A stretch of 21,044 nucleotides of DNA from a virus. The notes below the pieces were generated by a model. The model was not told the DNA's origin. It saw only the letters and a program-made list of their open reading frames with translations, and searched no databases. This document shows, in pieces, positions 12,721-20,920 of this stretch. The DNA lies in IMG/VR virus record IMGVR_UViG_3300046455_000160, positions 1 to 21,044 of that record, one strand, 5' to 3'. Each line of letters starts with the position of its first letter. The stretch's first letter is position 1. The translations under genes were made by a program, and so were the position numbers.

Positions 12721-13529
12721 CAGAAGCCCTCCTTGCCGCGCTGTGATTCCCAGTCGAACTTCACCGCAATGCCGCCGCCTTCGCGCAAACGATCGACACA
12801 GCGATCACCCAGCGCGCCAGGCAACTCTTCGGCCTTCAGGTTGGAAACGATGATGGTCGGGCGCTGCTGCTCGTAGCGGCCGTTGATGATGGTGAACAAG
12901 GTGGCCAACTCGAAGTCGCTCGGCTTTTCCTTCGTGGCGCCGATCTCGTCGAGGATCAGCAGCGACGGCTTGATCATGCTGGCGAAGATCTGGCTTTCAC
13001 TCTGCTCGCTGGTTTTGTCGTAGGTGCCGCGGATCGCTTGGAGCAAACCACCGACAGTGCGATACACCGCCGTGGCGTTGCTGGTGCTCATGATTTGGTT
13101 GGCGATGGATACGGCCAGATGCGTCTTGCCGGTCCCGGGCTTCCCCAGCAGCAACAGACAGCGACCAGTCTCGAAGATCTCCGGGAAGACATCGGCATAC
13201 TTGCGGCAGATGCGCAGGGCCTCCTTCTGCTCGGCAGTCTTGGCGACGTACCCGTCAAAGGTCTTGCCGGTGAAGCGCTTTGGAATCAGTGCAGCACCGA
13301 GCTTTTCAGCCATGCGCATCCGCTCCAGCATCGCGTCTTGATCCTGCTTGCGCGCCTCTTCCTCTTCGTTGCGAATACGGCTGCACTCAGGGCAACCGGT
13401 CTTGAACTCCTTGCCGAAAATCACGTTGATTTTTTGGCTGAAGGGGCCGTGGTCTTCGCACATGGCAGGCTGGGCGTGAGGCTCGGCTACAGCGACCGAA
13501 GGCATTGCAACAACGTTTTCAGAACGCAT
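12720..13529 (-). CDS. DnaC-like helicase loader ATPase
   Basis: A 269-residue AAA+ protein of the DnaC/IstB type that would load the host replicative helicase at the phage origin. A probable N-terminal zinc site (C24, H27, C46, C49) precedes the ATPase part with Walker A GKPGTGKT near 129-136, Walker B LLILDE near 190-195, and a sensor-like IVSNL segment. Of two nearby ATGs, 13538 is flush against the GGGAGG, while 13529 lies 9 bases from it and is preferred. It follows the DUF1376 initiator, repeating the order of lambda O and P. Confidence 0.93.
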   Translation of the reverse strand: MRSENVVAMPSVAVAEPHAQPAMCEDHGPFSQKINVIFGKEFKTGCPECSRIRNEEEEARKQDQDAMLERMRMAEKLGAALIPKRFTGKTFDGYVAKTAEQKEALRICRKYADVFPEIFETGRCLLLLGKPGTGKTHLAVSIANQIMSTSNATAVYRTVGGLLQAIRGTYDKTSEQSESQIFASMIKPSLLILDEIGATKEKPSDFELATLFTIINGRYEQQRPTIIVSNLKAEELPGALGDRCVDRLREGGGIAVKFDWESQRGKEGF

Positions 13530-14307
13530 AGGTTCCATCCTCCCGCTGGGTCAGGCCAGCGGAGTAGTCGCGACTGTCGAAGCCGGTATGACGCGATTGG
13601 GGGAATGGGTGGACGTTGCTTGGCGCAGCAGAAATCTCGTCTTCCCAGCGCTTGCCGTTGAGCCAGGTGGTCGGCATGGGGATGTACTTGCCGCCGTCCT
13701 TGAGCCAATCAGTGGATACGACTTGAGCGGACAGCCCTTTGGCGATCAGGGCGAACAGGTCGTTAGTGACCTTGAGTTTCGCCCATGCCTTCTGCGCCTT
13801 GGCCTTGTCCTGTTTCCGAGGGTAAAGCGCCCAGAACTTCGGGAAGAGATCCTCCCCCGCAGGGGGTAGGGGGTGTTCTTTTATATTCTTATCTGTATCT
13901 GTATCTATATGGTTGCCATTCCGTTGCAACGGATCGTCAACGGTCGTTGAACGTTCGTTGAGTTCCTGTTGTTTTTTGAGCGCTTTTGCCTTCGCGGAGG
14001 CCTTTCCTGCGTTAGAGGCGGTGACGACCTTGCTATTCACTGCCTCAAGGTCAGCCTCAACACGGAAGTGAGCCCAGTGAGTTTCTGTGATGTGAAAGAA
14101 CTCGCTCAACGTCTCGGCAACGGAATGCCAACGGTCGTTGGGAATACGTGCAACGGTGGCGAGCCGATCAATGCGCAGCGGCTTGCCGGTCTGCCAGTAG
14201 CTGAACAGCAGGAGCATGTATGCGCCATGCTCCTCAGCAGTCAGGTGAGTGGTGTCCGCCAGATAGTCGGCAACGTAGAACTGCATGTACGGGAGCGCGG
14301 CCATCAT
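13519..14307 (-). CDS. Phage replication initiator-like protein, DUF1376 N-terminal domain
   Basis: A 262-residue protein. Residues about 8-90 match DUF1376 (MQFYVADYLADT, LTAEEHGAYMLLLFSYW), a winged-helix-like domain of phage replication proteins. Residues 100-152 are a polar linker. Residues about 154-224 carry FPKFWALYPRKQDKAKAQKAW and YIPMPTTWLNGKRWEDE, a C-terminal motif frequent in phage replication proteins. With the adjacent DnaC-like loader it would act as the lambda O equivalent. It begins at 14307 in an ATGATG overlapping the antirepressor stop; GGAGG lies just upstream, and the second ATG (14304) is equally possible. The linker DNA holds repeats described as a candidate origin. 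Confidence 0.9.
   Translation of the reverse strand: MMAALPYMQFYVADYLADTTHLTAEEHGAYMLLLFSYWQTGKPLRIDRLATVARIPNDRWHSVAETLSEFFHITETHWAHFRVEADLEAVNSKVVTASNAGKASAKAKALKKQQELNERSTTVDDPLQRNGNHIDTDTDKNIKEHPLPPAGEDLFPKFWALYPRKQDKAKAQKAWAKLKVTNDLFALIAKGLSAQVVSTDWLKDGGKYIPMPTTWLNGKRWEDEISAAPSNVHPFPQSRHTGFDSRDYSAGLTQREDGTYAF
13874..13960 (-). other. Candidate replication origin inside the initiator gene
   Basis: Two tandem 11-bp iterons (13939-13949 and 13950-13960, differing at one base) stand beside a CCGTTGCAACGG palindrome (13921-13932) and an AT-rich block (13875-13910) with GATACA direct repeats. CAACG or CGTTG elements recur at 11-bp steps. An exact third copy of one iteron lies at 14130-14140 within a CAACG series at 14107, 14118, 14129 and 14151. 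Iterons next to an AT-rich unwinding block inside the initiator gene is how lambda ori is built. Confidence 0.5.
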
Positions 14308-15044
14308 TGAGCCTCCAGCTTGTACTGAGCCCATAGGCCGGCCACCCAGGTGACGCCCTTAGGGGTAAATTTGGTTTGATTGAAAGCGTGACCGCTATCG
14401 CTGGTGCCGGTCTTCACGTCGAAACGATCAGCATTTATGTGTTGGGCGTGGGCCTGCCATTCGCCTCCCATGCGGTACATGATTTTCTTGTCGAGCAAGA
14501 ACTCGCGGAAACGAGCTTCATTGGCGCCGAGCAATTTGGCGGTCTGGCGAAAGCCCTTCAGGCCGGTTGATTCAACGTACCGATCTACAAACTCGACCTT
14601 TGGCGCGGCGATGATCAGGGCTTGGTTGGCGGCCTGTTGAAGTTCGAACTGCTCAGCCCAGGCGCGGGCCGCTGCGGCGGGATTGGAAAAGTCTGGCAGC
14701 GTGACGGACTGGCGTGACTCAAGCGCTTGCCACCGGTCTACCAGCGCAGCGGTGAACTCTGGGCTGAGCTGTGCAACGACTACGAAACTGTCGCGCTTGC
14801 TCACCTGGTATTGCTCGACGATCTGCTGCAGATGATTTTTAACTTCCACCAATGGTGGGAGTTGGATGGTTCCGCGTTCTGCAAGTCGTTCAATGGTCCG
14901 CTTCACACTATCGTGGCGCGAACCGACCAGCTCCGCGATTTCTAGGCTGGACATCGAAACCACTCGCGACACGTTTTCAGAGATAACGAAACGGGGGGCG
15001 GCATGGATGGATCGGGGATTGACATTGCTTTGTTCTGTACGCAT
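14304..15044 (-). CDS. Antirepressor: Rha-like N-terminal and KilAC C-terminal domains
   Basis: A 246-residue regulator. Residues about 28-110 fit the Rha domain (SSLEIAELVGSRHDSVKRTIERL, SFVVVAQLSPEFTAALVDRWQALE). Residues about 130-240 fit the KilAC/ANT antirepressor domain (LQQAANQALIIAAPKVEFVDRYV, FRQTAKLLGANEARFREFL). Such proteins inactivate phage repressors or redirect phage development. It starts at 15044 with GAGGTGA a few bases upstream. On the opposite strand, a promoter overlapping this start and a terminator just upstream suggest control by a short antisense RNA. Confidence 0.9.
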   Translation of the reverse strand: MRTEQSNVNPRSIHAAPRFVISENVSRVVSMSSLEIAELVGSRHDSVKRTIERLAERGTIQLPPLVEVKNHLQQIVEQYQVSKRDSFVVVAQLSPEFTAALVDRWQALESRQSVTLPDFSNPAAAARAWAEQFELQQAANQALIIAAPKVEFVDRYVESTGLKGFRQTAKLLGANEARFREFLLDKKIMYRMGGEWQAHAQHINADRFDVKTGTSDSGHAFNQTKFTPKGVTWVAGLWAQYKLEAQ

Positions 15045-15047
15045 TAT
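15019..15047 (+). promoter_or_regulatory. Predicted promoter antisense to the antirepressor start
   Basis: Plus-strand TTGACA (15019-15024, perfect -35) and CATTAT (15042-15047, -10-like) are exactly 17 bases apart. Transcription would begin near 15054, opposite the Shine-Dalgarno of the antirepressor gene, with an intrinsic terminator about 40 bases on. Confidence 0.55.
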
Positions 15048-15053
15048 TCACCT

Positions 15054-15097
15054 CAACTTGATGTAGCAATGAACCGGGCCGTGAACCCGGTTTTTTT
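15054..15097 (+). ncRNA. Candidate sar-like antisense RNA against the antirepressor leader
   Basis: The predicted transcript is about 44 nt: a 17-18 nt single-stranded 5' part and a terminator hairpin. It is complementary to the antirepressor leader from the edge of its GAGGTGA site upstream. No protein is encoded on this strand here. In P22 the sar RNA is likewise made antisense to the antirepressor ribosome site. The start point is estimated, not observed. Confidence 0.45.
15072..15097 (+). terminator. Intrinsic terminator on the plus strand upstream of the antirepressor
   Basis: A perfect 7-bp stem AACCGGG/CCCGGTT (15072-15078 with 15086-15092), a 7-base loop and seven T on the plus strand. 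All genes around it lie on the minus strand, so it must serve an antisense transcript or be an accident of a leader hairpin. Confidence 0.8.
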
Positions 15098-15152
15098 GTG
15101 CCTGCTAAAGGACTTTTAAGCCCCTTCGAAGGCCCTCAAGGAGGGTCTCCGT

Positions 15153-15362
15153 CTACCCTTCTGAGGCCCTCTCTGAGGCCCTCTTTTGTACAAGCAGAAG
15201 AATTGGCGCCTTGCTTCTGCCAACGGCTGAAGTCGCTCCGCTCGCTATGCCAACAATCCCAAGCTCGTTTAACGCTTTCTCCAAACTCCATCCGTTTACC
15301 CGCATCAGTTGATCAATCTTTCGATTGGCCTCGGCTGACAATCGCGATCTTTCAAAAAGCAT
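15153..15362 (-). CDS. Small phage early protein of unknown function
   Basis: A 69-residue protein (starts MLFERSRLSAEANRKIDQLM). The frame opens further upstream, but the ATG at 15362 has GAGGG about 6 bases before it and lies 19 bases after the preceding gene. The first half, with RLSAEANRKIDQLMRVNGWSLEKALNEL, looks like a strand-helix-helix and could be ribbon-helix-helix related. The tail is basic. Function unknown; its place is between the RHH-like gene and the antirepressor. Confidence 0.62.
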   Translation of the reverse strand: MLFERSRLSAEANRKIDQLMRVNGWSLEKALNELGIVGIASGATSAVGRSKAPILLLVQKRASERASEG

Positions 15363-15381
15363 TCGGCCCTCCAGAGGGGCT

Positions 15382-15582
15382 TCAGCCCGCGATATCTTGT
15401 TCTTGGTCCTGCATGAGCTCTTCGATGGCACCGTTGGCTACTGCCCATTCGATGACTTCGTAGAGATACGTTGCGTGTTGACGGCGTGACTTGTTGGCGG
15501 CCTTGCGCAGGATTCGATCCAGCACCGGCTCGAAACGAACCTTCACTGGAATGTCCCGCTTTTGGTTTGGGTCCTGATACAT
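15382..15582 (-). CDS. Ribbon-helix-helix-like (Arc-type) small DNA-binding protein
   Basis: A 66-residue protein. Residues about 11-52 (IPVKVRFEPVLDRILRKAA, then HATYLYEVIEWAVANG) show the short strand followed by two helices typical of Arc/MetJ-like repressors. It lies right after the Cro-like gene, where lambda carries cII, and two genes upstream of the antirepressor. AGGA precedes the start at 15582 by about 11 bases. A regulatory role is inferred from fold and place; it might control the antirepressor as Arc does in P22. Confidence 0.72.
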   Translation of the reverse strand: MYQDPNQKRDIPVKVRFEPVLDRILRKAANKSRRQHATYLYEVIEWAVANGAIEELMQDQEQDIAG

Positions 15583-15890: not shown

Positions 15891-15898
15891 TTGTGTTT

Positions 15899-16624
15899 AT
15901 GACTACTGAACATTCAGGCGACCGCCTACGCCAATTCATGGACCAGCGAGGGCTTACTCCGAAAGGTGTTGCCAAGACGCTGAGCGTGACCCCTCAGGTT
16001 CTCAATAACTGGTTCCGCCGGGGTCTCCCCGCGCGCGCCATATACGATGCTGCGCAGATCCTTCTCGTTGACCAGCACTGGCTAACGACTGGACAGGCGC
16101 ATCCATCCGGGATGGCGCTCGCTCCGATACCTCCTGAACCGAACGCCGAAATGCTTGGCCCTATAGATGTCTGGGATGACGACACGCCTCTCGATGACGA
16201 CGAGGTCTATGTTCCGTTTCTCAAGGAGATTGAATTGTCAGCAGGGAGCGGCAGAACTGCGGTTCAGGAATCTTCCAATAGGAAGCTGAGATTTGGCCGT
16301 AACAGCCTGCGGAACAAGAACGTAGATCCCGCCTCCGCAAAATGCGTGACCGTTGCCGGAAACAGCATGGAGCCAGTCCTACGCAACGGAGCCACGGTGG
16401 CGGTCGACACCAGCAATACGCGCATTGTCGACGGAGACATGTACGCAATAGATCACGCTGGGCAGCTCCGAGTGAAGCAGGTCTATCGGTTACCAGGCGG
16501 AGGCATCCGACTCCGGAGTTTCAATCGAGATGAACACCCGGACGAGGAATACCCTCCTTCCCAGGTAGAAGCACAAGAGATCGTTATTCTCGGTCGCGTC
16601 TTCTGGTCCGGTGGGTTTCATTGA
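15899..16624 (+). CDS. CI-like prophage repressor (HTH + S24 peptidase)
   Basis: A 241-residue repressor. Residues about 7-50 form the helix-turn-helix (LTPKGVAKTLSVTPQVLNNWFRRG). Residues about 104-238 form the LexA/CI-type self-cleaving domain with catalytic Ser in GNSMEP (S156), Lys in RVKQVYR (K193), and a likely Ala-Gly cleavage site in ELSAGSG (115-116). It should hold the lysogenic state and be inactivated through RecA after DNA damage. A GTG at 15893 is an alternative start. It is divergent from the Cro-like gene across shared operators. Confidence 0.93.
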   Translation: MTTEHSGDRLRQFMDQRGLTPKGVAKTLSVTPQVLNNWFRRGLPARAIYDAAQILLVDQHWLTTGQAHPSGMALAPIPPEPNAEMLGPIDVWDDDTPLDDDEVYVPFLKEIELSAGSGRTAVQESSNRKLRFGRNSLRNKNVDPASAKCVTVAGNSMEPVLRNGATVAVDTSNTRIVDGDMYAIDHAGQLRVKQVYRLPGGGIRLRSFNRDEHPDEEYPPSQVEAQEIVILGRVFWSGGFH

Positions 16625-20688: not shown

Positions 20689-20920
20689 TTCACCCTCGCT
20701 GGGAGGGCCTTAACTGGATGGCCCAGACGCGCAAGGCGGCAAGAGCGCGATAGCACATCACCGCCAATCAGGGCACCTAGGAGCTGGTCCTTCACCTGGA
20801 TGGCTTCTGTCTCGACAGCAAGAGGCCAACAGGCTAACCCAGACCGGGTGTGACCTGATAACCCTTCCCGCCTAACAACTCGAACTCATACGCCGCCTGC
20901 ATGGCGGGGAGGATCTCTCC
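20689..20920 (+). other. Intergenic stretch before the DUF1351-like gene
   Basis: About 230 bases hold no frame of convincing size on either strand. A short CCGCC/GGCGG stem lies close to the next ribosome site. I see no clear promoter or terminator. Confidence 0.5.

Follow-up and report, generated by a model that had tools for sequence, protein, structure and literature searches.

An antisense RNA unit resembling lambda pO-oop-tO predicted at antirepressor gene starts in Pseudomonas phages

Repression by antisense units has been shown experimentally for P22 sar and lambda OOP/pO (PMC12197685, PMC3985674, PMC5869508). The lambda OOP RNA is 77 nt long (PMC12197685). A 52-base stretch of it lies over cII, and it suppresses CII; its promoter, pO, reportedly needs sequence further inside O (PMC5869508). 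Activity of pO lowers transcription from pR, and its loss harms replication (PMC3985674). On the strand opposite O, pO reads TTGAGT, a 17-bp spacer, and CATAAT, and the -10 lies exactly on the O start codon (sense ATTATG). The function known for OOP is not to repress O. In P22, sar RNA is about 69 to 70 nt long with two predicted stem-loops. Its start is at position -1 of ant, and the entire ribosome site is covered. The c4 RNA of P1 and P7 is cut out of the transcript that also carries ant; it is not made by an opposite-strand promoter. It exerts antisense control of the antirepressor (PMC12197685).

We analyzed a stretch of 21,044 nucleotides from a virus record (IMGVR_UViG_3300046455_000160), here called the window. 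A promoter and a terminator lie on its plus strand at 15019-15097, over the start of an antirepressor gene (Table 1). The TTGACA and CATTAT hexamers are 17 nt apart, and the terminator lies 23 bp past the -10. The promoter scores 10/12, with 4/6 for the -10 alone. A joint scan of both strands over the 21 kb, requiring a terminator no more than 75 bp after a promoter, returned this pair only, and the unit described in the earlier note is thereby borne out. Dinucleotide shuffles contained 0.07 promoter-terminator pairs per window at 8/12 or better; at 9/12 or better, 100 shuffles gave no pair. Promoter-like sites taken alone were not rarer than chance (3 found versus 5.5 expected in shuffles), so the weight of evidence rests on the pairing of promoter and terminator and on conservation.

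Table 1. Positions of the predicted unit, its parts, and neighboring features in the window
Feature	Positions	Strand	Remarks
Antirepressor gene ant, 246 aa	14304..15044	-	Rha N-domain (PF09669) and KilAC/ANT C-domain (PF03374), Pfam
Shine-Dalgarno region of ant, TTGAGGTGA	15048..15056	-	From sequence
-35 hexamer of antisense promoter, TTGACA	15019..15024	+	Inside ant codons ~7-9
-10 hexamer of antisense promoter, CATTAT	15042..15047	+	CAT lies opposite the ant start codon ATG (15044-15042)
Predicted antisense RNA, ~44 nt	15054..15097	+	17-nt 5' tail and terminator hairpin; start predicted
Intrinsic terminator stem-loop, then T-run	15071..15093	+	
Inverted repeat in ant codons ~13-25	14970..15006	.	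Just upstream of the antisense promoter; left arm degenerate in the window
Primosomal/replication-initiation-like gene (DUF1376)	13519..14334	-	Overlaps the end of ant
Small ORF upstream of ant	15153..15431	-	phrog_5333
CI-like repressor gene	15893..16624	+	S24 peptidase domain; same strand as the predicted RNA

The unit very probably makes an RNA of about 44 nt against the start of the antirepressor gene. Its start was placed about 7 nt after the -10, at 15054 ± 2. The predicted RNA folds into one hairpin at -11.8 kcal/mol. The earlier note had it begin at the Shine-Dalgarno; more precisely, it begins at the first base of that sequence (GAGG, 15054-15051), and it overlaps only the Shine-Dalgarno edge and the leader and not the whole ribosome site; the start codon would be uncovered. 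Because it ends before the upstream ORF, what it overlaps is the downstream gene's leader. On these predicted coordinates, that leader is the main pairing target.

The layout looks closer to that of lambda OOP than to that of P22 sar. As in lambda, an opposite-strand promoter at the head of a gene is followed by a short RNA with a terminator hairpin (GC-rich and followed by T6 in lambda). The features of the pO type are present: a -10 on the start codon, a -35 about 17 bp away, and a terminator within about 80 bp. In many relatives the unit also has a CII gene on one side and the ant/O replication genes on the other, as in lambda. Unlike OOP, the predicted RNA is about 44 nt long, has one hairpin, and heads an antirepressor. 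OOP is antisense to the 3' end of cII, whereas here the upstream ORF lies outside the RNA, by 6 to 7 nt in relatives and by 56 nt in the window. No sequence homology to OOP was detectable: a covariance model built from the RNA and leaving out its promoter (R1; 48 sequences, all linked to ant) gave no match to the lambda cII-O region. The promoter of lambda oop is reported to contain a LexA box; no such box was conserved here (2 matches in 65 loci).

The unit shares with P22 sar its position at an antirepressor start, a promoter inside the gene, and a terminator upstream of the gene. The description as sar-like stands for this layout. Beyond the layout it is unsupported or incomplete: the geometry is that of lambda pO/OOP, the Shine-Dalgarno is not predicted to be covered as it is by sar, the predicted RNA is shorter and has one hairpin instead of two, and the unit is not specific to antirepressors (see below). 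The Rfam sar model RF00262 gave no match at the window site at the gathering threshold or at E ≤ 1; P22 itself scored 97.8 bits. P22 Ant (P22_AR_N/C) is unrelated to the Rha/KilAC antirepressor, so that the earlier note was right to suggest an independent version.

Rfam scans of the window and its relatives returned no family at the unit site, and c4 was not matched there either. Two mir-296 matches at 15129-15183 were below threshold and were taken as chance. The Proteo-phage-1 RNA (RF03044) was matched elsewhere, at 20693-20769 (+) in the window, with 43 bits against a gathering threshold of 42, and at 2499-2569 of locus L101. In a literature search limited to open-licence papers, we found no description of such a unit in Pseudomonas or at a KilAC gene. 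RNA-seq of phage Fc02 (PMC9936078) was set aside as not relevant, since that phage is B3-like.

Homologous antirepressor starts were collected from IMG/VR and GTDB (105, of which 75 were distinct). The unit, defined as a promoter of at least 8/12 and a terminator on the strand opposite the gene, was present in 62 of the 75; these sequences are related by descent, and the counts are not independent events. Shuffled controls contained it once in 750, and the sense strand in 0 of 75. The earlier note had looked to such conservation, and homologues that lack the unit are not the rule within this lineage. The spacing between -35 and -10 was 17 bp in 46 of 58 homologues. The -10 was found in the same place, mostly as CATAAT, CATTAT, TATAAT, or CATGAT. 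The -35 mostly began with TTG (TTGNNN) or was TGTACA. Loci L112 and L126 carry TTGACA, a 17-nt spacer, and CATTAT as in the window but with other spacer letters. At the place of the -35, the AAT:AAC ratio of asparagine codons was 44:9; elsewhere in these genes it was 206:231. The -35 is thus conserved at the DNA level. Of the cells of the terminator stem, 98.5% were paired; double changes were counted in 49 cells, against 11.3 in shuffles.

The side of the T-run bears on whether the hairpin acts on the sense strand. It could be an attenuator or terminator before ant, or a bidirectional one, with the promoter match incidental. On the sense side, the stem is in many leaders followed by some T residues (mean, 3.2 of 7). 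However, a T-run of at least 6/7 was found in 59 of 65 loci on the antisense side and in 0 of 65 on the sense side. A promoter of at least 8/12 lay over the antirepressor start in 56 of the 65 loci with a terminator. Of 347 starts of other genes in these loci, only 11 had one. We consider a sense-strand role very unlikely, and it was rejected on the T-run side and promoter placement.

The earlier note placed every gene on the minus strand. This holds to the left of about 15,880; to the right of it, the CI-like repressor gene lies on the plus strand. Its product is the presumed target of the antirepressor. The promoter at 15019 could be an establishment promoter for this gene, like pRE, and its strand and direction would fit. 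Such a promoter is hard to reconcile with a conserved intrinsic terminator about 25 bp downstream of the -10; this reading was also rejected and is extremely improbable.

On the window, R1 scored 46.3 bits at 15049-15101; the next best site scored 19.6. In 14 Pseudomonas genomes, all 19 matches above 41 bits lay over gene starts, and the lower-scoring matches inspected were plain terminators. Matches were found in 84 of 199 Pseudomonas genomes, which is an upper bound because most R1 loci without a promoter are generic terminators. When 88 further loci were read, 66 had a promoter of at least 8/12 over a start codon and the remainder were mostly generic terminators. Roughly three quarters of the inspected matches were the real unit. 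R1 gave no match on LESphi2.

The unit was absent from the Rha-ANT genes of Acinetobacter, Cronobacter, Aeromonas, and Citrobacter phages and from the homologous antirepressor genes of Xenorhabdus prophages. Three antirepressor loci from Haemophilus and Aggregatibacter (L099, L100, and L235) have an opposite-strand terminator with a T-run, and a promoter-like site is placed differently. They are possibly an independent version of the arrangement. Since other genera lack the unit or place the promoter-like site differently, the unit as defined is, by sequence, characteristic of Pseudomonas phages, and it is conserved across diverse ones.

The gene below the unit varies. The 52 downstream proteins included 31 with Rha, 20 with ANT, 7 with BRO-N, 4 with phage replication O, 1 with HNH, and 1 with T5orf172 domains. 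KilA-N genes are also headed by the unit in Pseudomonas prophages. The O-type loci L156, L176, L203, and L215 have similar, weaker promoters (7/12), L199 has one of 9/12, and L165 has no promoter by the rules used. From these predicted sites, the unit is not specific to antirepressors and occurs also at BRO-N, KilA-N, HNH, and some O genes. The antirepressor is truncated or replaced while the unit persists at L139, L146, L171, L179, L189, and L195. A regulator ORF of only 29 to 73 codons, or a different next gene, was seen with the unit and leader codons at these loci and at L161, L163, L174, L178, L193, L194, L210, and L218.

We propose that the locus is a complete small unit that makes a cis-antisense RNA of about 44 nt, is built like lambda pO-oop-tO, and restrains the gene that it overlaps. 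This is probably the correct explanation. At the sequence level, the locus has a promoter of the sigma-70 type, with its -10 superimposed on the ant start codon, and a terminator about 25 bp further on, and it shows conservation and covariation. Leaky or early pR transcripts would run through cro and the small ORFs into ant, and the RNA would be complementary along its full length to their leader. The RNA would pair at the Shine-Dalgarno edge and upstream in the ant leader, and cleavage by RNase III would probably follow. RNA polymerase fired head-on at the ant start would act together with the pairing to keep the antirepressor low. Low antirepressor would prevent accidental loss of lysogeny, and strong pR transcription after induction would override the brake. 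Judged from the sequence, either leader pairing or convergent transcription could be the dominant effect. We expect repression of the overlapped gene whatever its identity, because regulators of several types, and some O genes as well, carry this same head. Several points count against a brake: the -10 in the window is only 4/6, the predicted RNA reaches just the Shine-Dalgarno edge, unlike sar, the unit is kept at loci with a truncated or replaced antirepressor, and homologous antirepressors in phages of Acinetobacter, Cronobacter, Aeromonas, Citrobacter, and Xenorhabdus lack it. In lambda, moreover, where the geometry is the same, OOP is not known for repressing O.

The promoter itself might be the working part. 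As a head-on roadblock, it would tune how much pR transcription enters the ant/replication operon, with the RNA as a by-product. The geometry and gene order are those of lambda pO (phage Fyn8 has cro, CII, the unit, ant, a hypothetical protein, and a helicase loader, in that order), and pO in lambda lowers pR transcription and is needed for normal replication (PMC3985674). Occurrence on some O genes and survival beside truncated ant genes also fit. However, the covarying hairpin and T-run lie about 25 bp from the promoter and would give a very short transcript, so that collisions of elongating polymerases would be limited. That the hairpin keeps the transcript so short suggests that the RNA itself matters. 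We regard the roadblock as the main working part as rather unlikely.

The RNA could instead act upstream, as OOP does. It would pair with the mRNA between cII and ant, and cleavage by RNase III would destabilize the CII-like message. Upstream ORFs belonged to the CII family (Phage_CP76) in 16 of 30 examined, and in relatives they mostly end 6 to 7 nt from the 3' end of the RNA. The upstream coding region is nevertheless not overlapped, unlike the 52 bases of cII in lambda (PMC5869508). In the window, where ant precedes the primosomal gene, the small ORF upstream has no CII-family match in Pfam or PHROGs and stops 56 nt past the predicted 3' end of the RNA. Action on the upstream message is improbable.

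Within the ~100 bp upstream of the unit, at 15129-15190, the window contains a number of near-repeats centered on GAGGGCCTC / GAGGCCCTC. Many relatives likewise carry motifs similar to GAGGGCCTC upstream of the unit.

Many of the downstream proteins share an N-terminal leader of about 25 residues. An inverted repeat lies in this part of the gene, just upstream of the -35 and at about -65 from the RNA start. In many relatives it reads CGCG(A/C)CACGTTTT..AAAACGTG(T/G)CGCG at codons ~13-30. The arms are 12 to 14 bp long with a spacer of about 8 to 12 bp (L070, L016, L092, and L060, codons ~15-30 of ant). The variable base covaries between the arms in 38 of 39 cases (C-G, 20; A-T, 18; mismatch, 1), even where the amino acids change. 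The repeat marks the junction where different protein bodies join. Its core also occurs near +650 to 750 in two loci, and L109 has a similar peptide near its C terminus. At L157 (1563-2402) an HNH endonuclease, and at L173 (1047-1814) a T5orf172-domain protein, carries a fused leader peptide of the antirepressor type. We tentatively suggest an exchangeable head in Pseudomonas phages, consisting of the OOP-geometry RNA, the first ~25 codons, and the covarying repeat. It may be shared across the unrelated bodies Rha-ANT, BRO-N, KilA-N, HNH, and T5orf172-type. The repeat could be the swap junction, a site that activates the RNA promoter from upstream, or both; the regulator would change and the brake would be kept. 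We hold this idea to be possible and less probable than its negation.

The unit recurs in many Pseudomonas prophages, and from its sequence it looks like a standard brake. The isolated phages Fyn8, phiPSA1, and psageK9 make it directly testable. If expressed, it would be a widespread antisense RNA family without an Rfam model. It joins in one layout the antirepressor control of sar and the cII-O junction of OOP. If the unit is expressed, this points to a general design in which the gene that opens the ant/replication block carries a common brake on its opposite strand.
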